The notes below the pieces were generated by a model, which ran no database searches, was not told the DNA's origin, and saw only the letters and a program-made list of their open reading frames with translations. A DNA stretch of 64,000 nucleotides from Pseudobacteriovorax antillogorgiicola (GTDB lineage: Bacteria; Bdellovibrionota_B; Oligoflexia; Oligoflexales; Oligoflexaceae), in assembly GCF_900177345.1 (NCBI RefSeq), contig NZ_FWZT01000012.1, positions 62,001 to 126,000 on the forward strand. Direction: 5' to 3'. Of this stretch, positions 1 through 13,017 are shown piece by piece. The stretch's first letter is position 1. Each line of letters begins with the position of its first letter. A program made the translations under genes and the position numbers.

Positions 1-1034
1 AGTACAACATTGGTATTCTAGCGTCTGGCGACCCTCTATTTTTTGGTATTGGCACTTTGCTGATCAAGCGAATTGGAATCGAAAATATCGACATCATTCC
101 GTCGCCTAGTTCAGTTCAGCTGGCCTTCGCAAAAATTGGCAAACCCTGGCAGGACTGTCGGTTTCTCTCCGTCCATGGTCGCCCCTTAGATGGGTTCGTC
201 AATAAGGTTCAAAGCCATCGAAAAGTCGCTGTTCTCACAGATCAGGACCGTTCCCCCCAGCAGATTGCACGCCGACTAATAGACTATAAAGATGAAGCTT
301 GGGCTTTTTGGGTCTGTGAAAACCTTGGTGGAGTTGATGAAAAAGTCACCCACTTTGATCATACTAGAGCCCTTGAAATACACCCTAGCTTTAGCCCACT
401 TAATGTATTGATCATGGAGCGCCCTCCATCGTGGCAGCCAAGACCCGGGATTTCTTTTCAAAGTGAGGAGGCATTTTCTAAACGAATGCCTAGGAAAGGC
501 TTGATCACCAAAAGTGAAGTTAGATTGCTAACGCTCGCCAAGCTCCAGATTCAGCAAGCCGATGTGGTCTGGGACATCGGAGCCGGATCTGGCTCCGTAG
601 CCATCGAAGCAGCCAAGTGCTGCCCTGAAGGCTTTGTCTATGCCGTAGAGTGTGATCCTCAGGGGATTCCTTTCTGCCAGGAGAATATATTTTCGCATCA
701 AGTAGACAACGTTCACTTGCTTGAAGATCGTGCCCCAGAATGCTTCGAAAAGCTGCCTGACCCAGACGCTATATTTGTTGGAGGTAGCAAAGGTTCCTTG
801 CAACAGATTATATCTAAAGGCATGGAGCGACTAAAACCGCAGGGGCGATTGCTTGTGAATGCAGTGACCCTCGATAATGTTGCCGAAGCTCGACAAGCAT
901 TTCAGCAACTCGGAATCCTACCTGAAATGGTCATGATTCAAGTATCAAGGGGCGTTCCATTGGCCGGCAAATACCTCAAGTACGAAGCGCTCAATCCCAT
1001 TCACATGTTTTCAGTGACCAAAGGAGAGTCATAA
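1..1034 (+). CDS. cbiET: Precorrin-6Y/cobalt-precorrin-7 C5,C15-methyltransferase (decarboxylating), CbiE-CbiT fusion, 5' end outside window
   Basis: The frame is open from base 3, so the gene starts upstream of the window; 343 residues are visible. The visible N-terminal part is a tetrapyrrole methylase (CbiE) and includes the motif ASGDPLFFGIG at the very start. From about visible residue 170 a CbiT-type SAM methyltransferase follows, with the glycine-rich loop VWDIGAGSGSVAIEAA. The fused enzyme methylates C5 and C15 of the corrin ring and decarboxylates the C12 side chain. The TTG at 57 lies inside the conserved CbiE region and is not the start. The stop codon TAA overlaps the ATG of the next gene by one base. 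Confidence 0.93.
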   Translation, partial: YNIGILASGDPLFFGIGTLLIKRIGIENIDIIPSPSSVQLAFAKIGKPWQDCRFLSVHGRPLDGFVNKVQSHRKVAVLTDQDRSPQQIARRLIDYKDEAWAFWVCENLGGVDEKVTHFDHTRALEIHPSFSPLNVLIMERPPSWQPRPGISFQSEEAFSKRMPRKGLITKSEVRLLTLAKLQIQQADVVWDIGAGSGSVAIEAAKCCPEGFVYAVECDPQGIPFCQENIFSHQVDNVHLLEDRAPECFEKLPDPDAIFVGGSKGSLQQIISKGMERLKPQGRLLVNAVTLDNVAEARQAFQQLGILPEMVMIQVSRGVPLAGKYLKYEALNPIHMFSVTKGES

Positions 1035-1786
1035 TGCAGATGCAGAAAGGCAAACTCTACGGGGTCGGAGTGGGGCCCGGTGCTCCAGACCTTCTCACCT
1101 TGCGTGCGCTTAAGGTTTTACAATCTGTTGATGTCTTAGCCATTCCCCGACCAAACCCTTGGTCAAAATCCTTGGCTTGGCGGATTGCTGAACCCAACCT
1201 AGAAGATCGAGGCGATCAGGAGAAGCTATTTCTCACTTTCCCTATGACGAAAGACCCCGATGTTCTTGTCCCAGCATGGCAAACGGCCTTCGATGAGATT
1301 GGTGAGCGCCTCGATCAGGGAAAAAATGTGGCTTTCCTAACTCAGGGCGACTGCATGGTCTATAGCACCTTTATCTACCTTTACGATCACGCCCGAGAAA
1401 ACTGGCCGGAAGTTACTATTGAAGTTGTCCCTGCTGTGTCATCGATCAGTGCTGTACCTTCGGCCATCGGCACTCCCCTAGTGGATGGTCAAGAGCGAGT
1501 CGCAGTGCTACCTGCGACTTACGGAACTGAGGACTTGAAAAAAGTCTTACAGGACTTTGACTCTGTGGTGCTGATGAAGGTTGGGTCGGTGATGGACAAG
1601 GTTATAAATGTTCTCGAAGACGAACAACTCCTAGAGAAGGCAGTTTATGTGGAGCGGGCAACAAGCAATCAAGAGCGTATTGTCAGAGACCTCAGGTCGC
1701 TAAAGAACGACAAATGCGTTTACTTCTCAATGGTCGTAGTAAACAAAAAGGAAAGAGCTGGAATACTTCAGGGGAGGGTCCATTGA
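1034..1786 (+). CDS. cbiL: Precorrin-2/cobalt-factor II C20-methyltransferase
   Basis: A 250-residue tetrapyrrole methylase of the CbiL/CobI type, about the usual family length. The SAM-binding N-terminus reads LYGVGVGPGAPDLLTLRA, and residues near 100 carry the family motif FLTQGDCMVYSTF. It methylates C20 of (cobalt-)precorrin-2, the step that commits the ring to cobalamin. The start ATG overlaps the upstream stop by one base, and the stop TGA overlaps the TTG start of cbiG. Sequence alone cannot say whether it prefers the cobalt-loaded substrate; the CbiG neighbour favours that. Confidence 0.92.
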   Translation: MQMQKGKLYGVGVGPGAPDLLTLRALKVLQSVDVLAIPRPNPWSKSLAWRIAEPNLEDRGDQEKLFLTFPMTKDPDVLVPAWQTAFDEIGERLDQGKNVAFLTQGDCMVYSTFIYLYDHARENWPEVTIEVVPAVSSISAVPSAIGTPLVDGQERVAVLPATYGTEDLKKVLQDFDSVVLMKVGSVMDKVINVLEDEQLLEKAVYVERATSNQERIVRDLRSLKNDKCVYFSMVVVNKKERAGILQGRVH

Positions 1787-2901
1787 GCCTACGGAAGCCT
1801 TTTGCAATCTATGGAATTACAAAGCATGGCTTAAAAACCGCTGCCCGCATCAAAGCCGCCTTTCCAGAGGCAGATCTATATGTTTCGAAGAAACTGATGG
1901 GTCAAGCCCCAGCGGACAGCTTGGAACTACCACTTCCCTTCAGCCCTTTGCTTAGAGAAACTTTCCCAGCTTATGACTGCCATATTTTTGTAGTGAGCGT
2001 CGGGGCAGTGGTTCGGATGATTGCACCACTGCTTCAGAATAAAAAAACCGATCCCTCAGTTCTTTGTATTGATGACGCCAATCGTTTCACGATTTGTCTG
2101 TTATCGGGTCATGTAGGGCGAGGCAATGAGTTTACGAGTCGGGTGGCTGAGGCTCTAGGCAATCAAGCCGTGATCACTACCGCTTCGGATTCCATCGGAA
2201 CCCTTACTGTTGATATTTTGGGACGTAAGCTTGGCTGGGTCTTGGAAGACGATCATCACAATGTCACCCGTGGTTGTGCTGCGGTTGTCAACGAAGAGCG
2301 GGTACTGATTGTTCAAGAAACAGGTGAACCAGATTTTTGGCCTCTCGATAAGAAGCTACCACCCGGAGTAGACTACTGTCATAGCCTAGATCATGTACCA
2401 GCACAAACGTTTGATATGCACCTCATCGTATCGGACCGGGATATCCCCAATTTATATCCATATCTCTACAGAAATGCTGTGGTCTACCGCCCTAAGAGCC
2501 TGATCCTAGGTATTGGCTGCGACAGAGGGACTCCATTTGAACTCCTAGAACGTGGTATTCATGGGATCCTCAAAGAATTTAAGCTCAGCTGGAAGTCAAT
2601 AAAGGGGTTAGCTACCATCAGTATCAAAGCCGATGAGCCGGGTCTAGTCGAGCTCGGTAAACGCTACAACTGGCCTTTGATCGCCTACGAACCGAAAGCA
2701 CTGGACGATATGGAAGGCGTCGAGAACCCATCAGAACTTGTTAAGAAGTATACCGGCAGCCGAACCGTAGCGGAGGGTGCAGCACTCAAGCGATCAGGTG
2801 CAACGAGTTTACTTGTCAGTAAACAAAAATATACGGAGCCAAACATCGCTAAGAACATGACTCTAGCTATCTGTAGACTCCCGTTTGATAAAAGGAATTA
2901 G
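1783..2901 (+). CDS. cbiG: Cobalt-precorrin-5A hydrolase
   Basis: A 372-residue CbiG protein. It opens the delta-lactone of cobalt-precorrin-5A, releasing acetaldehyde and starting ring contraction in the oxygen-independent pathway. The N-terminal and central parts contain VVSVGAVVRMIAPLL and LSGHVGRGNEFTSRVAEALG, typical of CbiG. The C-terminal domain begins near LILGIGCDRGTP and ends with GATSLLVSKQKY. I chose the TTG at 1783 because a GGGAGG Shine-Dalgarno sequence lies just upstream and TTGA overlaps the cbiL stop. An earlier in-frame ATG at 1714 would add 23 non-conserved residues inside cbiL. Confidence 0.9.
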   Translation: MSLRKPFAIYGITKHGLKTAARIKAAFPEADLYVSKKLMGQAPADSLELPLPFSPLLRETFPAYDCHIFVVSVGAVVRMIAPLLQNKKTDPSVLCIDDANRFTICLLSGHVGRGNEFTSRVAEALGNQAVITTASDSIGTLTVDILGRKLGWVLEDDHHNVTRGCAAVVNEERVLIVQETGEPDFWPLDKKLPPGVDYCHSLDHVPAQTFDMHLIVSDRDIPNLYPYLYRNAVVYRPKSLILGIGCDRGTPFELLERGIHGILKEFKLSWKSIKGLATISIKADEPGLVELGKRYNWPLIAYEPKALDDMEGVENPSELVKKYTGSRTVAEGAALKRSGATSLLVSKQKYTEPNIAKNMTLAICRLPFDKRN

Positions 2902-2902
2902 C

Positions 2903-3736
2903 ATGGAGCAAAGCAAAATGGGCAAACTCTATGTTGTGGGTATCGGACCTGGTGCTCATGAGCATATTTCGCCAGCAGCCCTAGCAGCGATCGAGGAAGC
3001 TGATCTCGTCGTCGGCTATCAAACCTACATGTTACTCGTGAGAAAGCTTATCAAAGGCAAGGATAAGGTACAAACTGGTATGACCGAAGAAATTGGTCGG
3101 GCTCGAATGGCAGTTGACGAAGCCGCGAATGGTAAGGTTGTCGCTATTATCTCATCGGGAGATGCTGGGGTATATGGCATGGCGACTCTGATGTTTGAAG
3201 TCCTTAAGGAACGAGGCTGGCAGCAGGGTGATGCACCTGACATTCAAGTGATCCCTGGCATGACAGCGCTCAATGCCTGCGCATCCCTGGTAGGAGCACC
3301 TCTAGGTCATGACTCTTGCATGATCTCGCTTAGTGATCTATTGACACCATGGGATATCATCGAGCGTCGCATCGAAGCTGCAGCTTCGTCAGATTTTGTT
3401 ATCGGTCTCTATAACCCCGCAAGTGGCCGGCGCCAACGGCAAATTGTTCGCGCCCAACAGATCGTGTCTCAATACCGCGACCCTACGACTCCAGTAGCGC
3501 TTATTAAAAGCGCTTACAGACATCGTCAAAAAGTAGTTAAAACTGATCTCGAACATATGATCGACTATGAAATTGGGATGCTAACCACGGTGCTAATAGG
3601 TTCGACCCAAACCTACATGTACGAAGGCTATATGGTCACTCCCCGTGGGTATCACCATAAATACGATTTGGAAAGCGGGACTGCAAACCCTGGACAACGG
3701 CCTGGCTTCGGCCTAAACACTGAGACTTTATCATAG
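2903..3736 (+). CDS. cbiH: Precorrin-3B/cobalt-factor III C17-methyltransferase
   Basis: A 277-residue tetrapyrrole methylase. The N-terminus is LYVVGIGPGAHEHISPAA, and it contains ISSGDAGVYGMA and VIPGMTALNACASLVGAPLGHD. The motif FVIGLYNPASGRR is diagnostic for CobJ/CbiH, which methylates C17 and contracts the ring. ATG 2903 is preceded by AAAGGAA and follows the cbiG stop by one base. A TTG at 2885 would add six residues without a good ribosome site. Confidence 0.92.
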   Translation: MEQSKMGKLYVVGIGPGAHEHISPAALAAIEEADLVVGYQTYMLLVRKLIKGKDKVQTGMTEEIGRARMAVDEAANGKVVAIISSGDAGVYGMATLMFEVLKERGWQQGDAPDIQVIPGMTALNACASLVGAPLGHDSCMISLSDLLTPWDIIERRIEAAASSDFVIGLYNPASGRRQRQIVRAQQIVSQYRDPTTPVALIKSAYRHRQKVVKTDLEHMIDYEIGMLTTVLIGSTQTYMYEGYMVTPRGYHHKYDLESGTANPGQRPGFGLNTETLS

Positions 3737-3748
3737 TAGGAGAATATT

Positions 3749-4150
3749 ATGGCGTTGATCGGACGTATCGCTGGCGCGATCTTGCTTAGAACAGAAGAGA
3801 AGTCCTATCTTATCGGCGATCTCAAAGAACCCTGTTCTTTCGAGGATCGAGGGTTTCACCCTCCCCTTGAGCGAGATGTAATCAAACACCCCTTTGTTGA
3901 AATCCAAACCAACGGTAAGGATGTGATTTGCGATGATGACTACGAGCTAGTGGTAACTGAAGATAGCTCTCTCCCATCGAAGATCGTTGATCGCTTTTTG
4001 ATATTCCGCAATGGTTCTATCAGTGAAAGACTCTGGGGGTTGGTCACAGAGTCTTCAGAGGCTGAAGGAAAAAGGGTCAACGCTGAATGGCTCATGCAAA
4101 CTCCCGATGATGTTTGGGAGATCGTTAGAGATTCAGTACTGCGCTGCTAG
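3749..4150 (+). CDS. Unknown 133-aa protein embedded in the cobalamin operon
   Basis: I do not recognise this protein. It is 133 residues, with no signal peptide, no membrane segment and no nucleotide-binding motif. The N-terminus MALIGRIAGAILLRTEEKS is mildly hydrophobic, the middle is acidic (DVICDDDYELVVTED), and two cysteines occur at about residue 28 and in the final pair RC. It has an AGGAGA ribosome site before ATG 3749. It sits 12 bases after cbiH and 9 bases before cbiF, on the same strand with no terminator, so it must be co-transcribed with corrin-ring genes. A role in corrin synthesis is inference from position only. Confidence 0.8.
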   Translation: MALIGRIAGAILLRTEEKSYLIGDLKEPCSFEDRGFHPPLERDVIKHPFVEIQTNGKDVICDDDYELVVTEDSSLPSKIVDRFLIFRNGSISERLWGLVTESSEAEGKRVNAEWLMQTPDDVWEIVRDSVLRC

Positions 4151-4159
4151 GAGATTAAG

Positions 4160-4939
4160 ATGAAGGTATATATTATCGGAGCCGGGCCAGGAGACCCAGA
4201 GCTAATCACGGTGAAAGGTCAGAAGCTGATCAGCACTTGCCCAGTGGTCCTCTATACAGGGTCGCTAGTTCCCCCTGAGGTTATCACCATGGCGAGTGGT
4301 GATGCAAAGGTACTCAATTCAGCTGGGATGACACTCGATGAGATCATGACCGTGATTCAAGAAGCTGCCGACAGTGGTCACGACGTCGCTCGGGTGCACA
4401 CCGGTGATCCCTCAATATTTGGTTCAACAGCTGAGCAAATGCGGCGGATGGATCGACTTGGAATCAGCTATGAGATCGTTCCTGGTGTTTCTTCATTTGT
4501 CGCGGCAGCCGCAGCATTGAACAAAGAACTTACCCTACCGGAAATTTCACAAACGGTGATCATCAGTCGCGGCGAAGGACGAACCCCAGTGCCTTCAAGC
4601 GAACGTTTGGAAGTGCTTGCTCAATCAGGAGCAACCCTTGCTTTGTTCCTAAGCATCACGTTAATCCGAAAAGTGACCCGACAACTGATTCCGTTTTATG
4701 GCGAAGACTGCCCTGTGGCAGTCGTCCATAAGGCAAGCTGCCCTGAACAGATCATCGTGAAGGGCACTTTGAAAGATATTACAAAGAAAGTAACAGAAGC
4801 TAGGATCACGAGCCAATCGATGATTCTGATTGGCAAAGTCTTGGATACTCACGACTTCGCGGAGTCACGCCTCTACGCAGCCGACTTCAGTCACGGCTAT
4901 CGCAAGGCTGAGGTCCAAACTGTTGAGTCTAAATCATGA
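4160..4939 (+). CDS. cbiF: Precorrin-4/cobalt-precorrin-4 C11-methyltransferase
   Basis: A 259-residue CobM/CbiF protein. It has the N-terminal SAM-binding pattern VYIIGAGPGDPELITVKG, the family motif YTGSLVPPEV, HTGDPSIFGSTAEQMRRM near residue 90, and VPGVSSFVAAAAALNKELTLPE. It methylates C11. ATG 4160 has an AGGAG site nine bases upstream. The stop TGA overlaps the ATG of the next gene (ATGA), indicating translational coupling. Confidence 0.94.
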   Translation: MKVYIIGAGPGDPELITVKGQKLISTCPVVLYTGSLVPPEVITMASGDAKVLNSAGMTLDEIMTVIQEAADSGHDVARVHTGDPSIFGSTAEQMRRMDRLGISYEIVPGVSSFVAAAAALNKELTLPEISQTVIISRGEGRTPVPSSERLEVLAQSGATLALFLSITLIRKVTRQLIPFYGEDCPVAVVHKASCPEQIIVKGTLKDITKKVTEARITSQSMILIGKVLDTHDFAESRLYAADFSHGYRKAEVQTVESKS

Positions 4940-6426
4940 GCCTTGTTTATCTAGTTGGGGGCGGCCCTGGAGACCCGCGTTTGCTGACTCTGAGAGCCAA
5001 GGACCTAATAAGTAAGGCAGACCTACTTGCTTACGATGACTTGATTCATCCCCAGATTCTTAGCTTTGCACCTCCCAGTGCCAAACTACTTGCCATTGGA
5101 TATCGGGGTCTTCGTCAGCGTCATGGCTCGGCTCCATTGCTGCATCCAGAAGTGATCGAGGCTGCAAAGGCAGGCAAGACGGTTGTGCGCCTCAAATCTG
5201 GCGATCCGATGATTTTCGGGCGCGCATGGGATGAAGCGAAACTTCTAGAACAGCATAGTATCGCCGTAGAAGTAATTCCGGGAGTCACTGCGGCTGCAGG
5301 AGCGGCAGCTAGTTTCGGCTTGCCGCTGACCCTAAGAGGGATCAGCTCAGGAGTTACCATTGAAACAGGCCATCAAGGAACACAGCAGAGGGACCTCCAA
5401 GAGAACACTCGGGTCGTGTACATGCCTAGGGCAGGAATCAAAGACTATTGCCAGAAGCTATTGGCCAGCAGTCGTTTTTGTTATGATACTCCAGCGATTT
5501 ATGTTACAGCTGCATCGACTCCCCTAGAAGAGCAATACCCGACAACACTTGGTCAGCTTGCTAGCACTATTCATAACTACCGCGGCGGCAGCCCAGGAAT
5601 CGCGATTATTGGTGAAACTGTCAGCTACCGCTTGCGATCTCGGCAACAGGCCCCTCAAGATCGCCCTCTTAGATCAAAACGAATCCTGGTTGGGCGCTTA
5701 AGACCAGGGAATTCTCGCCTCGCAAGAAAGCTGCGAGATCTGGGGGCTGATGTGATTGAAGCGCCTCATGTGAAGTCGGCTCCATTGCAAGACTATGATT
5801 CCTTTGACAAAGCCATCCAGAATCATCACACAAACGAAGTTTGGTTTTTCGCGTCCTCAGAATGTGTGGTGATGTTTTTTCAAAGGCTAGAAAGCCTTCA
5901 ACAGGACATCCGAAACTTCAAGGCTGAGTTTGCAGTTGCTGGGGAGGAGGCCAGTCGCGAACTTAGAAAATATGGAATTCAAGCCAACTCAACAAGCCAT
6001 GGCCTTTGTGAAGACGATTTAGCAAAACACAAGGATACATGTTTCAATAAGTCCATCAAGATCCTTAGCTCTACAAATAGCAAGCCTCTATGGTTAGAGC
6101 ATATTCGACCATGGGCCGCCGAAATCGAGACAATCCCATGTTATGAGCGCACCTTCCAAGCGACAAGGCTAGTATCTCCACCACCGCACTACCTAGCGTT
6201 GCCAAGTTCAACGGTAGTAAAGGCTCTCTGCGACTTCGACTATGGGTTTGATATAACTCAAGTGACCGCTTTTGCTATCGGCCCCAAGACTTACCAAGCA
6301 GCAAAGGCGCGAGGCATCAAAGATGTTTTTATGAGCGAGCATGATCAAATTGAAAGTCTCGTCGACTCCATTGTCAAATATCAACAAACAAGCATGAAGA
6401 CTATCGAGGAAACTTATTATGAATGA
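4936..6426 (+). CDS. cobA-hemD: Uroporphyrinogen-III C-methyltransferase fused to uroporphyrinogen-III synthase
   Basis: A 496-residue two-domain protein. Residues 1-240 are a SUMT-type methylase (YLVGGGPGDPRLLTLRA, LKSGDPMIFGR, VIPGVTAAAGAAASFGLPLT), which makes precorrin-2 from uroporphyrinogen III. Residues about 245-490 resemble a HemD uroporphyrinogen-III synthase: a LVGRLRPGNSRLARKLRDLG start, a central FFASSECVVMFF segment and a late FAIGPKTYQAAKARG segment. The HemD half is divergent, so that call is less certain. There is no CysG-type dehydrogenase/ferrochelatase domain. ATG 4936 overlaps the cbiF stop; the 3' end overlaps cobO by 8 bases. Fusing ring synthesis to the branch-point methylase would channel substrate to B12. 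Confidence 0.88.
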   Translation: MSLVYLVGGGPGDPRLLTLRAKDLISKADLLAYDDLIHPQILSFAPPSAKLLAIGYRGLRQRHGSAPLLHPEVIEAAKAGKTVVRLKSGDPMIFGRAWDEAKLLEQHSIAVEVIPGVTAAAGAAASFGLPLTLRGISSGVTIETGHQGTQQRDLQENTRVVYMPRAGIKDYCQKLLASSRFCYDTPAIYVTAASTPLEEQYPTTLGQLASTIHNYRGGSPGIAIIGETVSYRLRSRQQAPQDRPLRSKRILVGRLRPGNSRLARKLRDLGADVIEAPHVKSAPLQDYDSFDKAIQNHHTNEVWFFASSECVVMFFQRLESLQQDIRNFKAEFAVAGEEASRELRKYGIQANSTSHGLCEDDLAKHKDTCFNKSIKILSSTNSKPLWLEHIRPWAAEIETIPCYERTFQATRLVSPPPHYLALPSSTVVKALCDFDYGFDITQVTAFAIGPKTYQAAKARGIKDVFMSEHDQIESLVDSIVKYQQTSMKTIEETYYE

Positions 6427-6946: not shown

Positions 6947-8307
6947 TGGCTCAAATTCCAAGGTTGGTCGTTGCTGGTTTATCCAGTGGCGTCGGCAAAA
7001 CAACTTGTATGGTTGGTCTAACCATTGCTTTGAGACGTCGCGGACTAAAGGTCGCGAGTTTTAAATGCGGCCCTGACTATCTTGACCCAAGTTACCATCA
7101 TCGAGCCAGTCAACAGACCTGTCACAATTTAGATGGCTGGATCATGGGGCAAGATGCCATTCTCGAAACCTTTCAACGTGCTAGCCGAGACGCAGATATT
7201 GCTCTGATTGAAGGAGTGATGGGTTTATTTGATGGTGCTAGCCCTCGTAGTCCCGCTGGCTCTTCGGCGGAGATTGCACGCTGGCTACAAGCCCCTGTTC
7301 TCGTCACAGTTGACGCATCAGGCATGGCAAGAACCATTGCCGCCATCGAATCGGGTTTGTTGCATTTCGAGCCTGATTTGCCGGTGGCAGGCCTTATTAC
7401 CAATTTCGTAGGTTCCCAAAGCCATAAAAATCTGCTGCAGGAAGCGCTTCGCCAACTTCCAGTGATTGGTGGTCTACCAAAGAGGCCTGACCTCGCTTTT
7501 CCGGAGCGACATCTGGGCTTGAGCACCGCTAGGGAGCAAGCCGTCCCCCAGGCACAACTGGAAGCGTGGGCAGATATGGTGGAAGAATGGTTTGATATTG
7601 AGCAAATCCTGGAGATTGCTGGAAACGCACCATCCCTCCCTACCGCAAGTGACGTCATGGAACAGCCTTCTTCTACTCGCTGCCGTATTGCCTACGCTTG
7701 GGACGAAGCCTTTCACTTCTATTACGAAGATAACCTAGCTCGCTTGCGACGCTTAGGCGTTGAACTCGTCCCATTTTCCCCAATCCATGACTCAAGAATT
7801 CCAGACGCTGATGGCCTTTATCTAGGAGGAGGTTATCCTGAACTTTTTGCCACCGAGCTGGCAAACAATAGTGCAATGCTGGCTAGCATTCACAGCTTCG
7901 CTGAACGAGGCAAGCCCATTTACGGAGAATGTGGAGGATTGATTTACCTTTGTGAAAGCCTCCAAGACCTAGATGGCAAAACCCACTCTATGCTTGGGCT
8001 TTTGCCCGGCTATGTAACGATGAAGGACAAACTACAAGCCCTTGGTTATGTTGAAGTTGAAACTCAAGACCCAAGCTTCTTAGGGGATGCAGGAACCCGA
8101 TTCCGTGGCCATCAGTTTCGGTATTCCACTATTGTCATGGATGGTTCGATCACAGAAAGCTATAAGCTACGCAAACGACGAAACCAGGAGCTTAGTCGTG
8201 AAGGCTTTCGCAAGGGACAAATCCTTGGCAGCTATGTCCATGCTCATTGGGCATCAAACCCTCAGATATGCGAGAATTTCATCCAAGCCTGCGAGGCTTT
8301 TCGATGA
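6946..8307 (+). CDS. cbiA: Cobyrinic/hydrogenobyrinic acid a,c-diamide synthase
   Basis: A 453-residue glutamine-dependent amidotransferase that amidates the a and c side chains. The N-terminal synthetase domain carries the P-loop GLSSGVGKTT (residues 10-20) and SFKCGPDYLDPSYH. The C-terminal class I amidotransferase domain carries GLYLGGGYPELFA and the catalytic cysteine in GECGGLIYL near residue 330. Length fits the family (about 450). It overlaps cobO by one base and cbiZ by four (ATGA). The 161-residue antisense frame at 7173-7658 is a shadow of this gene. Confidence 0.94.
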   Translation: MAQIPRLVVAGLSSGVGKTTCMVGLTIALRRRGLKVASFKCGPDYLDPSYHHRASQQTCHNLDGWIMGQDAILETFQRASRDADIALIEGVMGLFDGASPRSPAGSSAEIARWLQAPVLVTVDASGMARTIAAIESGLLHFEPDLPVAGLITNFVGSQSHKNLLQEALRQLPVIGGLPKRPDLAFPERHLGLSTAREQAVPQAQLEAWADMVEEWFDIEQILEIAGNAPSLPTASDVMEQPSSTRCRIAYAWDEAFHFYYEDNLARLRRLGVELVPFSPIHDSRIPDADGLYLGGGYPELFATELANNSAMLASIHSFAERGKPIYGECGGLIYLCESLQDLDGKTHSMLGLLPGYVTMKDKLQALGYVEVETQDPSFLGDAGTRFRGHQFRYSTIVMDGSITESYKLRKRRNQELSREGFRKGQILGSYVHAHWASNPQICENFIQACEAFR

Positions 8308-9005
8308 TAGCAGAATCCGAACAAACCAAAAGCTCAACTCAAGAGCACATGCAGCGGCTGCTGCACGTTCCCTTTCAAAATCCTTGCCGCGTGGCCTCCT
8401 GGGCGATCCTCAACGGCGGTCTGAAACAAGCTTCAGGAGTCGCTTGGCTAAGAGTTTGCTCCGATGACTTACAGCCTCCCGTTGATCCAGCCGCTTTCTT
8501 ACACGATCAGCTCAGTTACGCTGGTCTAGGCAACTGTGTGGGCCTAATGACTAGTGCCCGTTTGGAAAACGCATGCCATCGCCAACAATCATTTGGAAAC
8601 TACTGGATCAAAGCCACAGCAACAGCAGGGCTTGGCAATGCCATGAGAATCGGGGATAACCCGTCACCATCGGGCCGCATTGGAACCATCAACATTGCTG
8701 TTGAGTGTAGCCATGGACTAACGGATGAAGCCCTTATAGAAGGGCTTGCTATGATTACTGAGGCGAAGGTCGCAGCTGTCTTCGATCATCGTATCAGTAG
8801 CTACATGAGCCCTAGACAGGCTACGGGTACAGGAACTGATTGCTGCGTGATAGCTGCCCCCATCACCGAAAAACAGCACTATTACTGCGGCAAACACACA
8901 ACTTTAGGCCACCTTATCGGCGAAGGTGTCTACCATGCTGTTGCCGGTAGCATTTCCAAGTGGATCAAGGACAACCCAAACCATCGCCTTCTAGGAGGAT
9001 TCTGA
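8304..9005 (+). CDS. cbiZ: Adenosylcobinamide amidohydrolase
   Basis: A 233-residue CbiZ-family protein. Hallmarks are AGLGNAMRIGD, GTINIAVECSHGLTDEALIE, a TEAKVAAVFD segment and ATGTGTDCCVIAAP near the C-terminus. CbiZ removes the aminopropanol side chain of adenosylcobinamide to give adenosylcobyric acid, a salvage reaction that lets corrinoids with other side chains be reused. I chose ATG 8304, which overlaps the cbiA stop (ATGA). The ATG at 8247 lies well inside cbiA. Having CbiZ inside a de novo operon that also has cobU is notable. Confidence 0.88.
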   Translation: MIAESEQTKSSTQEHMQRLLHVPFQNPCRVASWAILNGGLKQASGVAWLRVCSDDLQPPVDPAAFLHDQLSYAGLGNCVGLMTSARLENACHRQQSFGNYWIKATATAGLGNAMRIGDNPSPSGRIGTINIAVECSHGLTDEALIEGLAMITEAKVAAVFDHRISSYMSPRQATGTGTDCCVIAAPITEKQHYYCGKHTTLGHLIGEGVYHAVAGSISKWIKDNPNHRLLGGF

Positions 9006-9541
9006 TGTCCCAGATCTTTCTCGTTAGCGGTGGTTGTCGATCCGGTAAGAGCCGCTTTGCCCTAAGCCTTGCCGAGACTTATGAGCGAGCCATATACCTG
9101 GCAACTGCTCAAGTCTATGATGATGAAATGGCTGATCGGGTTCTGCGTCATCAACAGGAAAGACCCTCTCATATGCGAACCATTGAAGAGCCTTTGAAGT
9201 TAGAGGCTCTGCTCGAAACATCTTTGGATTGCGATGTTCTCATCTGGGACTGCTTGACTCTTTGGCTATCGAACATGCTCTGTGAAGGCCACAGCATCGA
9301 TCAAACCCTTGAGCAACTGCAAGGGATTTTAAGCATTCTCGGTAGCCAATCATACGATAGCATCATCGTTAGCAACGAGGTAGGTCTCGGTATCGTGCCC
9401 GAATCAGCACTGGGCAGGCAATTTAGAGACCTCGCTGGCTGGGCGCACCAAATGATTGTGCCACTTGCTAAGGAGGCCTATTTACTAGCCATGGGTGTAC
9501 CGATAGGCTTAAAAGCCTTGCAAAAGAGTCAGCAGTTATGA
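9005..9541 (+). CDS. cobU: Adenosylcobinamide kinase / adenosylcobinamide-phosphate guanylyltransferase
   Basis: A 178-residue CobU/CobP protein. The P-loop SGGCRSGKSRFA lies at residues 7-18, followed by YLATAQVYDDEMADRVLRHQ with the guanylylated-histidine region, RTIEEPLKLEALL and WDCLTLWLSNML. It phosphorylates adenosylcobinamide and then activates it with GTP. ATG 9005 has a strong AGGAGG ribosome site and overlaps the cbiZ stop by one base. The in-frame start at 8960 lacks a site and lies inside cbiZ. The stop overlaps cbiB by four bases. Confidence 0.95.
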   Translation: MSQIFLVSGGCRSGKSRFALSLAETYERAIYLATAQVYDDEMADRVLRHQQERPSHMRTIEEPLKLEALLETSLDCDVLIWDCLTLWLSNMLCEGHSIDQTLEQLQGILSILGSQSYDSIIVSNEVGLGIVPESALGRQFRDLAGWAHQMIVPLAKEAYLLAMGVPIGLKALQKSQQL

Positions 9542-10470
9542 ATGATCCAAGTCTTCTGCTTACTATCTTAGCGCTTAGCCTACTTCTAGATCAAGTGATT
9601 GGTGAATACCCGAATCGCTGGCACCCAGTGGTATGGATTGGCCGAAGTATCCGTTGGATGAGACAGCTTGTTCCACATGGAGACCCCGTCATTGCCTATT
9701 TATGGGGATTGGTGATCGCCTTATTCGTACCTGCTGTCTGGGCAGGCCTCGTTGCTCTTTTGTCATACCTATTCGATCATTGGCCATGGCTATGGGTTTT
9801 GCTGGGTACCTATGTTCTCAAAGCCAGCTTTGCTCTCGAAGCCCTTGGCCTAGCCAGCAAAACTGTAGGGCACCATCTAGACCAAGGGCAACTGGAACAG
9901 GCTCGCTTTGAGCTGCGTAGTCTCTGTAGTCGCGATGCCAGCCAACTTTCAGAAGAACAGTTGATTGGAGCCTCAGTGTCTTCCATTGCTGAGAATTTAT
10001 CGGATAGCTTCGTCGCACCCCTATTTTACTTTCTTATATTTGGATTACCAGGTGCTATTGCCTATCGAGCCATCAATACTTTAGATGCCATGCTTGGCTA
10101 TTGGGACGAACGGCGTTGGATTGGTCACTTCTCTGCCAAACTTGACGACTTGGTGAACTATGTGCCAGCTCGTATCACCGCCCTGCTCATCACGGCAGTT
10201 GCCACCATAGAATCAAGAGACTCAAAGAGCTTTCCAATTATGATTCGCGACCATTTTTTAACACCGAGCCCCAATGGTGGTTGGCCCATGGCCGCCATGG
10301 CTGGAGCCCTAGGGATCCAACTGAGTAAGCCTGGCGCTTATAAGCTTGGAGATCCTGAGCAAGGTCTTAGCTTCCAATCCTTAGGTGAATCATGGCGGCT
10401 CGCTAAACGTGCTGGCCTACTATTTTTCGGCGTCAGTGTCATGTTACTGGGAGTACAGCTTGCAACTTGA
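9538..10470 (+). CDS. cbiB: Adenosylcobinamide-phosphate synthase
   Basis: A 310-residue integral membrane protein of the CbiB/CobD family. Several hydrophobic helices are visible, the first near LLLTILALSLLLDQ and another near LWGLVIALFVPAVWAGLVALL. Conserved motifs are DQVIGEYPNRWHPVVWIGR at the N-terminus and ASVSSIAENLSDSFVAPLFYF in the middle. It attaches the aminopropanol (phosphate) side chain to adenosylcobyric acid at the inner membrane. It overlaps cobU by four bases and the likely cobD start by 11 bases. Confidence 0.94.
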   Translation: MNDPSLLLTILALSLLLDQVIGEYPNRWHPVVWIGRSIRWMRQLVPHGDPVIAYLWGLVIALFVPAVWAGLVALLSYLFDHWPWLWVLLGTYVLKASFALEALGLASKTVGHHLDQGQLEQARFELRSLCSRDASQLSEEQLIGASVSSIAENLSDSFVAPLFYFLIFGLPGAIAYRAINTLDAMLGYWDERRWIGHFSAKLDDLVNYVPARITALLITAVATIESRDSKSFPIMIRDHFLTPSPNGGWPMAAMAGALGIQLSKPGAYKLGDPEQGLSFQSLGESWRLAKRAGLLFFGVSVMLLGVQLAT

Positions 10471-11500
10471 ATCTCGCATACATGGAGGCATCGCACAGTA
10501 TCAGGCTTCCCATCATACTTTGGATTTTAGTGTTAACATCAACCCATACGGCCCCAGCCGTAGAATGGAACAGGTCATCAGGCAAGCAAAATATGATGAG
10601 TATCCAGATCCACATTGCTTCAAACTTAGAAAGGCTATTAGCCAGTGGCATCACTGCGATATTAATCAGATTCACATCGGTAATGGGGCTGCTGAAATTT
10701 TTTGGTCTCTAGCATCCACAAGGCAGGAGAGTGGCGGCATCGCTTTAATCTTAGAGCCCACTTTCAGCGAATTTTCTGTAGCCTGTCGTCAAAGGGGTTA
10801 TGACCTTAGGGAAGTGAGAAGTCAATCTTCTCACGGATTCAAGCATGGGATCCCTTCGATTGAGCAAGCCCTGACGTCCTTCAAACCAGTATTTACCTAT
10901 ATCTGTAATCCCAATAGCCCCACTGGGACATATATACCAGGCCATCAGATCCGCTCTCTCGCCACTCGTTTCTCAGAAAGCATTTTTGTTCTTGATCAAG
11001 CATTTATTCATATGAGTCCCTTTAGCCAAGATGCAAGGCAAGACTACCCTGAAAATGTGGTTCAAATTTTTTCATTTACTAAGGATCATAGCATTCCTGG
11101 AATTAGGCTAGGCTACGCTAAGGGATCTCCATCAATAATTCGAAACATAAGTCACCAGACGCCAACATGGAATGTTAGCTCTCTGGCTCAAGCAGCTGGA
11201 TTGCAAGCCTGCCGGGAATCAAACTTTGTCAGCCAATCCTACCTTCAGGTTCAAAGCAACCAAGACTACCTATTGCGTGTCATCGAAGACCTCGGCATTC
11301 CCTGGCACGTTGGTCATTGCCCCTTCGTTCTACTTAATGTTGGAAATGCTGATAGGCTGCAACAAAATCTGTTACACCATGAGATCTTGGTGCGATCTTG
11401 CTCCTCTTACAAGCTACCGGGCTGGATAAGAGTTTTCCCAAGACCCAAGCCGGATATCGATCAGCTAATCCACGCTTTGAAAAAGGTAGTCGAATCATGA
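10460..11500 (+). CDS. cobD: L-threonine-O-3-phosphate decarboxylase-like PLP enzyme
   Basis: A 346-residue class I/II aminotransferase-fold protein. The N-terminus contains LDFSVNINPYGPS, and ICNPNSPTGTYIPGHQI is the PLP-site asparagine motif. The Schiff-base lysine sits in FSFTKDHSIPGIRLGYA near residue 215. By family and position it makes (R)-1-amino-2-propanol phosphate for CbiB. I chose the TTG at 10460 because GGGAG lies six bases upstream and conservation begins just after it. The ATG at 10385 would sit deep inside cbiB. The stop overlaps the cbiP ATG. Confidence 0.88.
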   Translation: MQLESRIHGGIAQYQASHHTLDFSVNINPYGPSRRMEQVIRQAKYDEYPDPHCFKLRKAISQWHHCDINQIHIGNGAAEIFWSLASTRQESGGIALILEPTFSEFSVACRQRGYDLREVRSQSSHGFKHGIPSIEQALTSFKPVFTYICNPNSPTGTYIPGHQIRSLATRFSESIFVLDQAFIHMSPFSQDARQDYPENVVQIFSFTKDHSIPGIRLGYAKGSPSIIRNISHQTPTWNVSSLAQAAGLQACRESNFVSQSYLQVQSNQDYLLRVIEDLGIPWHVGHCPFVLLNVGNADRLQQNLLHHEILVRSCSSYKLPGWIRVFPRPKPDIDQLIHALKKVVES

Positions 11501-13017
11501 AATGCCCTGTTTTGATGGTACAAGGAACCGCCTCATCGGTGGGTAAAAGTTTGCTAGTAACCGGCCTTTGTCGCTTATTCAAACAGAGAGGTCTTCGTGT
11601 TGCCCCATTCAAAGCGCAAAACATGGCTCTTAACTCATACGTAACTCCTGATGGCGCCGAAATCGGACGCGCTCAAGCAGTGCAAGCAGATGCAGCCGGA
11701 GTGACTCCCACCGCTACGATGAACCCCATTTTACTAAAACCAGAAGGAGACCGCTGGTCTCAGGTGGTGATCCTTGGCAAGGTTCACCAAAGCATGACAG
11801 CCCTTGATTATCACAGACTGAAGCCTGAACTTCGTCAAACAATCGGTCAGAGCCTCGATCAGCTTCGGGAAACTCATGATCTCGTCATCATTGAAGGAGC
11901 TGGCAGTCCTGCTGAAATCAATCTGAAAGCCAATGACATCGTGAATATGTTCGTCGCCAAACAAGCTCAGGCCCCGGTGCTGCTTGTGGGTGATATTGAT
12001 CGCGGGGGAGTATTTGCATCTTTTGTGGGAACAATGGAGTTGCTTGATGCCGATGAACGGAACCTTGTGGCTGGTTTCGTGATCAATAAATTTCGCGGCG
12101 ACAAGAGCCTGCTCGACCCTGGGCTGGACTTTCTCGATGACCGCACCGGTCGCCCTAGCCTGGGCGTGGTTCCTTATGTGAAGAATCTGCGCTTGGCTGA
12201 AGAAGATTCTATCGCCTTAAGCGAACGTCCCAACTTCTTAAGTGACTCTCCAAGGAAGATCGATATTGCTATTATCAGGCTTCCCAGAATCTCAAATTAT
12301 GACGAATTCGATGCTTTGGAACATGAACTGGGAGTCCATGTTGCTTATGTGAGTGATGGCCAAAGTATTTTGGATGCCGACCTCCTTATCATCCCTGGTT
12401 CAAAGTCGACGAGTACAGATCTCGCATGGCTTTACGAAACTGAGCTGGCTGCGGCGATCCAAGAGCGAGCACGACAACAGCGCCCCATCATAGGAATCTG
12501 TGGGGGCTGTCAGATATTAGGCCAACGTGTAAGTGATCCTAATGGCATCGAATCATCAATCGCTGAAATTCAAGGCCTGGGCGTCTTACCCCATGAAACC
12601 GTGATGGAAAGACACAAGTTGACCACCCAAGCCCGAGTTAAACTGGAGCAATCGATGTTTGGCTTAGATACGGGCCAATCCTATAGAGGCTACGAAATCC
12701 ATTTGGGCAAACTGATTCGTCACAATCAAGCAGGGCCCATTTTTTCCATACATGAGCGCAACCAAGAAGACTGTCTGGTGACTGATGGCAGTTATCAAGA
12801 TTCTGTCATGGGCACACTGATCCATGGATTGTTTGATGAGGATCATTTCCGTCGTCCCATTCTCGCCTACCTAGCGGCACTAAAAGGACTTACATGGGCA
12901 GGCGCGGAAGCTCTTGTCAGCCGTGATATGGAATATGATCGCCTAGCAAAAACTTTGGAAGAACACCTCGATATGCATGCTATAGATGCGATTATCGAAA
13001 AACAGAGGACCACATGA
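11497..13017 (+). CDS. cbiP: Cobyric acid synthase (glutamine-hydrolysing)
   Basis: A 506-residue CobQ/CbiP amidotransferase that amidates side chains b, d, e and g. The P-loop region QGTASSVGKSLLVTGLCR is at residues 6-23, followed by PFKAQNMALNSYVT. VGDIDRGGVFASFVGT and IPGSKSTSTDL are typical of the family, and the glutaminase cysteine is in GICGGCQILG near residue 335. ATG 11497 overlaps the cobD stop (ATGA), and the protein then begins exactly at the conserved KCPVLMVQG. The ATG at 11398 would add 33 residues from another gene's frame. Confidence 0.95.
   Translation: MKCPVLMVQGTASSVGKSLLVTGLCRLFKQRGLRVAPFKAQNMALNSYVTPDGAEIGRAQAVQADAAGVTPTATMNPILLKPEGDRWSQVVILGKVHQSMTALDYHRLKPELRQTIGQSLDQLRETHDLVIIEGAGSPAEINLKANDIVNMFVAKQAQAPVLLVGDIDRGGVFASFVGTMELLDADERNLVAGFVINKFRGDKSLLDPGLDFLDDRTGRPSLGVVPYVKNLRLAEEDSIALSERPNFLSDSPRKIDIAIIRLPRISNYDEFDALEHELGVHVAYVSDGQSILDADLLIIPGSKSTSTDLAWLYETELAAAIQERARQQRPIIGICGGCQILGQRVSDPNGIESSIAEIQGLGVLPHETVMERHKLTTQARVKLEQSMFGLDTGQSYRGYEIHLGKLIRHNQAGPIFSIHERNQEDCLVTDGSYQDSVMGTLIHGLFDEDHFRRPILAYLAALKGLTWAGAEALVSRDMEYDRLAKTLEEHLDMHAIDAIIEKQRTT

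Follow-up and report, generated by a model that had tools for sequence, protein, structure and literature searches.

A gene in the corrin-ring operon of Pseudobacteriovorax antillogorgiicola encodes a 133-aa member of an undescribed protein family, and we propose, with a probability of roughly 0.6 and with some latitude as to mechanism, that its product is an accessory subunit of CbiH. In Leptospira interrogans a member of the family forms the C-terminal domain of the enzyme itself. The gene occupies positions 3749..4150 on the forward strand of the window, i.e., the whole stretch of 64,000 nucleotides analyzed here, which begins at position 62001 of contig 12. That the protein has a role in corrin synthesis is nearly certain, and a partnership with CbiH appears highly probable from the comparison of loci. 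What defines corrin synthesis is the contraction of the ring, and it is to this step that an undescribed family, apparently with a new fold, would have been added.

The gene and its operon

The reading frame starts with ATG, is preceded by the ribosome-binding site AGGAG (3738..3742, forward strand, read from the sequence) and is separated by 12 bases from the stop of cbiH and by 9 bases from the start of cbiF at 4160. The first-pass annotation, made from the letters alone, had placed the gene in this interval with these very gaps and a good ribosome site, and all of this was borne out exactly. No promoter-like site was found on the strand of the gene in the cbiH-cbiF interval. Homologues of similar length exist in 28 further genomes and dN/dS between relatives ranges from 0.08 to 0.60, mostly below 0.35, so that the frame can be taken as a real coding gene.

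The surrounding genes are all on the forward strand. They include the bifunctional cbiET (57..1034, the gene start preceding the window; curated profiles), the C20-methyltransferase gene cbiL (1034..1786; curated profile), cbiG, for cobalt-precorrin-5A hydrolase (1774..2901; Pfam profile), and cbiH/cobJ, for C17 methylation and ring contraction (2903..3736; TIGR01466, 324.8 bits; PDB 2zvb, E 2.9e-79), whose product is the proposed partner. Downstream lie the usual neighbour cbiF/cobM, for the C11-methyltransferase (4160..4939; TIGR01465, 337.9 bits), and a cobA-hemD fusion of the same operon (4936..6426; Pfam profile); the scores of both CbiH/CobJ and CbiF/CobM exceed the cut-offs of their profiles. 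Moreover, the adenosylcobinamide amidohydrolase gene cbiZ (PF01955) occurs at 8247-9005 of the window, within an operon for de novo synthesis, an arrangement likewise seen in Leptospira and at two Myxococcales loci (L055 and L056).

Just upstream of the window, and given here in the coordinates of locus L017, stand cbiX fused to a thioredoxin-like 2Fe-2S domain, a gene for the uncharacterised DUF3209 (PF11483; 8892-9266), which adjoins cbiX, a gene for an FAD/NAD reductase of the FNR type (FAD_binding_6; 9300-10016), which lies beside cbiD about 2 kb before the window start and corresponds to Leptospira LB_163, then cbiD (10026-11147) and cbiC (11144-11797). A cobalamin riboswitch (RF00174, 106 bits; L017:7406-7603) directly precedes the start of cbiX, and the operon, including the 133-aa gene, is therefore probably regulated by B12. 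The first-pass annotation had also raised the replacement of a mutase step not seen in the window; such a replacement is unlikely, since the mutase gene cbiC is present just outside it.

An undescribed family that accompanies cbiH

The 133-aa protein had been described as matching no corrin enzyme, and the searches agree: there was no match in Pfam at E<=1, only a sub-threshold one in NCBIfam, nothing significant among PDB sequences, no match in PHROGs for the window protein and one relative, and no homologue in the viral contigs searched. Two weak PDB sequence matches, 8zdo and 5fx0 (E 0.67 and 1.1), were dismissed as chance, and weak partial matches in genomes of the class and of Myxococcota (E 0.01-0.9) were rejected as family members. 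A scan of genome contigs with the single sequence returned nothing; an alignment of four members from the window's own taxonomic family, used as seed, recovered 23 loci, and later searches added two Leptospirales, two Planctomycetota and L. interrogans, for a total of 29 genomes. These belong to Oligoflexaceae, Sorangium and other Myxococcota or deltaproteobacteria, Planctomycetota, one Acidobacteriales MAG and Leptospirales. The family is rare in the phylum samples, with one convincing score among 237 Myxococcota, one member among 297 Acidobacteriota and three among 392 Planctomycetota; in 72,556 plasmid records homologues were met in Leptospira only, and within Leptospirales the same six of 30 genomes carry both CbiF and the family.

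At most loci the order is cbiX, DUF3209, reductase, cbiD, cbiC, cbiET, cbiL, cbiG, cbiH, the 133-aa gene and cbiF, so the place between cbiH and cbiF that the first-pass annotation wished to see examined is conserved in several phyla. In all 29 genomes cbiH lies directly upstream wherever the contig extends that far, and at 11 loci the start of the 133-aa gene and the stop of cbiH share one base. The gene usually next downstream is cbiF, at a spacing of up to 100 bases; at L045, L046 and L049, all from Sorangium, cbiF is not downstream and different genes follow, with cbiH still upstream, and at L051 only cbiH, the 133-aa gene and cbiF were recognised within 16 kb. The two findings that would have told against a corrin role did not materialise: the searches yielded no convincing homologue away from corrin genes, and profile and structural comparisons gave no membership in an unrelated family.

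A covalent tie is found in L. interrogans, where CobJ (WP_000715695.1, 497 aa) consists of CbiH at about residues 1-270, a linker and then a domain of the family at about 363-497 (A2 profile match, E 2e-30). Thus, the family is attached to the C-terminal side of CbiH covalently in this species and through operon adjacency at the other loci. The published tables give this protein, LB_157, as a methyltransferase only (PMC4758666), and the present analysis gives meaning to an unremarked domain. In L. interrogans the genes of the operon are transcribed together (PMC5243855), and infectious Leptospira are predicted to obtain B12 by way of the corrin operon (PMC4758666). Long open frames at L055, L056 and L103 had raised the suspicion of in-frame fusions to CbiH, but they are not in the cbiH frame, and the genes, which lie in GC-rich DNA, are therefore separate.

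Furthermore, the distances within the family correlate with those of CbiH (0.917), CbiG (0.887) and CbiF (0.802), values reached in none of 2000 permutations, and this correlation is partly due to shared descent of the operon, CbiG being nearly as high as CbiH. As far as comparison of genes can establish it, linkage to cbiH, start-stop overlap, fusion, co-inheritance and purifying selection are demonstrated. Because the protein adjoins cbiH and is fused to CbiH in one species, it is probably a helper of ring contraction in several bacterial lineages that are distant from one another. The first-pass annotation had left the choice between a replacement enzyme and an accessory factor; the accessory half gains ground, and specifically for CbiH, given the L. 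interrogans fusion and the retention of cbiH at loci that lack a downstream cbiF, and the replacement half is weaker. The protein would not be part of every CbiH reaction, since close relatives of the window CbiH (48-58% identical) in Manganitrophus, Methylibium, Sphaerotilus, Methylomonas and Thermus apparently work without it, no family member being found on the same record.

Possible mechanism and competing explanations

Nearly all members share the residues R6, G9, G23, K26, G35, R87, N88, S92, E93, R94, W114, P119, R127, L131 and C133. Several of them fall in the signature RNGSISERLW (codons 87-96; 4007..4036, forward strand), where R87, S92, E93 and R94 are conserved in every homologue inspected and N88 gives way to T in a single Planctomycetota member. 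According to sequence comparison, C133, whose codon lies at 4145..4147 on the same strand, is the only invariant cysteine of the family and the last or next-to-last residue in all homologues inspected, the fused Leptospira domain included; a KEPC cysteine is frequent, lost in some Sorangium and in Pseudobacteriovorax, and shifted in Leptospira. The HMM search and structure prediction envisaged in the first-pass annotation gave no family match and two confident AlphaFold models, one of the window protein (pLDDT 92.1, pTM 0.86) and one of a Leptospirales member (pLDDT 93.9, pTM 0.87), with three strands at the N terminus, some short strands, two helices and, at the C terminus, a helix that ends at the cysteine. 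Foldseek found no match for either model among PDB and viral structures (best E 1.2), and the models thus suggest a fold that is new with respect to that comparison set. They offer no structural relative from which a chemistry could be guessed, and the protein bears no recognisable cofactor motif, both of which tell against the proposed mechanism.

The reaction of CbiH, methylation at C17 of cobalt-factor III with contraction of the macrocycle, yields cobalt-precorrin-4. The action of its ring contraction on cobalt-factor III is documented (PMC7242693). The 133-aa protein would dock on CbiH, where the conserved basic residues R6, K26, R87, R94 and R127 may bind the cobalt tetrapyrrole with its eight carboxylates, a proposal made because basic residues conserved at several positions are well suited to a polycarboxylate. 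The thiol of C133 could then be offered to cobalt as a ligand or redox group, either securing the right cobalt state during contraction or protecting the labile product and handing it to CbiF; electrons might come, more speculatively, from the FAD/NAD reductase and the CbiX 2Fe-2S domain of the same operon. We put forward this tetrapyrrole-binding and thiol mechanism tentatively, at somewhat less than even odds. The broader picture, in which a protein of new fold would hold the cobalt tetrapyrrole on CbiH and provide cobalt with a cysteine ligand or thiol, as a distinct early-cobalt variant of ring contraction with a dedicated CbiX-ferredoxin and FAD-reductase electron chain in organisms without CbiJ, seems rather unlikely to hold as a whole.

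CbiJ (PF02571) was sought in the whole P. antillogorgiicola genome and not found, and it is the sole standard corrin-ring enzyme of the anaerobic pathway of which this is true. Likewise, none of the 18 carrier genomes tested has it, while G054, a relative of the same class with corrin genes and no member of the family, does. Such a pattern could point to the 133-aa protein as the cobalt-precorrin-6A reductase or part of it, a non-orthologous replacement of CbiJ that would perhaps act with the FAD/NAD reductase; indeed, the reductase and the 133-aa gene occur together in every full carrier operon, and the reductase is in none of the carrier-free corrin operons inspected. We nevertheless consider this reading quite improbable. 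CbiJ also went undetected in the control B12 producers Haloferax volcanii and Methanosarcina acetivorans, where the 133-aa protein is not known, and the replicons of Thermus, Methylibium and Manganitrophus, the only part of these genomes searched, hold neither CbiJ nor the family. Besides, the protein is small, shows in the two confident models a small beta sheet with helices rather than a Rossmann-type NAD(P)H-binding fold, and matches no nucleotide-binding structure; it has no CbiJ/CobK match to PF02571 at E<=1, nor has any of 24 family members, and the family is fused to CbiH and not to CbiD or CbiET, which flank the step. The reductase encoded beside cbiD suits the role better and is the stronger candidate for the CbiJ step. 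Its deletion in two Leptospira strains that kept most of the cluster (PMC4758666) calls for caution on that role, and several of those Leptospira clusters are also decaying. The replacement of a reductase, conceived in the first-pass annotation, is accordingly the weaker reading. The family and the uncharacterised reductase together make the question of the missing CbiJ directly testable.

In a separate observation, corrin operons of Thermus and betaproteobacteria (L090, L093 and L095) were found on replicons that have neither CbiJ nor the FAD/NAD reductase.

A more general function can also be envisaged, namely that of a chaperone for cobalt or for Fe-S or thiol groups, or of a redox adaptor, that serves the pathway as a whole (for example from CbiX-ferredoxin to CbiH) and does not bind tetrapyrrole. 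The invariant C-terminal cysteine, the frequent KEPC cysteine, the presence of both the CbiX-2Fe-2S fusion and the FAD/NAD reductase alongside the gene, and the ferredoxin that occupies the slot after cbiH in other lineages would all be in keeping with it. However, with a single invariant cysteine, and with that of KEPC lost or shifted in some members, the protein has no classical metal or cluster site, and a function of this kind is improbable as well.

Transfer of the product from CbiH to CbiF, which would channel cobalt-precorrin-4 and leave CbiH catalysis itself unaffected, would account for a gene placed at nearly all loci between those of two consecutive steps; yet at the three Sorangium loci it is cbiH and not cbiF that adjoins the gene, the fusion partner is CbiH and CbiF gives the lowest of the distance correlations, and we regard this explanation as distinctly improbable. 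Finally, the operon has a patchy distribution among phyla and is probably transferred as a unit, which would allow the gene to be a passenger of horizontal transfer with no corrin role, an idea made extremely improbable by the fusion to CbiH, by the purifying selection on the family and its invariant polar residues, and by its persistence where operons have been rearranged.

Comparison with known systems

With CbiJ, a NADH-dependent enzyme of about 230 aa, the 133-aa protein is connected by a possible pathway gap, the former being absent wherever the latter occurs among the genomes tested, whereas the two have no similarity in sequence or fold. DUF3209 resembles the 133-aa protein in being small, uncharacterised and encoded in cobalamin operons beside CbiX-ferredoxin; it was seen here only in such operons, in haloarchaea as well as in Thermus and other bacteria. 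It is, however, a separate family with this wider range and its own Pfam model, is encoded by another gene of the operon, and its profile does not match the 133-aa protein.

The proposed accessory subunit of CbiH can also be compared with domains attached to CbiH elsewhere. In CbiH60 the C-terminal extension carries an iron-sulphur centre. This protein of Bacillus (Priestia) megaterium joins CbiH to an extra C-terminal domain, and the Leptospira fusion has the same layout. CbiH60 is a characterised anaerobic ring-contraction enzyme (Moore et al. 2013, J Biol Chem 288:297, as cited in PMC7242693). The 133-aa domain differs from the extension in its single invariant cysteine, which is not the iron-sulphur cysteine set of CbiH60, and in having no cluster motif and no detectable similarity to known domains. 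On a plasmid of Methylomonas sp. LL1 (L092:9004-10368), CobJ/CbiH carries a fused ChuX/HutX domain for haem utilisation (PF06228, 43 bits) and is followed by a 2Fe-2S ferredoxin gene. Here too an accessory domain, of a tetrapyrrole-handling type, is attached behind CbiH, the operon is of the CbiG type and its replicon lacks CbiJ. In this it resembles the 133-aa family, which by contrast matches neither the ChuX/HutX/HemS models (PF06228, PF05171) nor, by Foldseek, their folds. A ferredoxin gene adjoins cobJ in Methylomonas, Sphaerotilus and Halorubrum, and the family has neither the profile of the thioredoxin-like 2Fe-2S ferredoxins (PF01257) nor their four-cysteine motif. Since haem domains and ferredoxins are thus attached to CbiH in other lineages, the 133-aa protein can be read as another occupant of the same slot for a CbiH helper.
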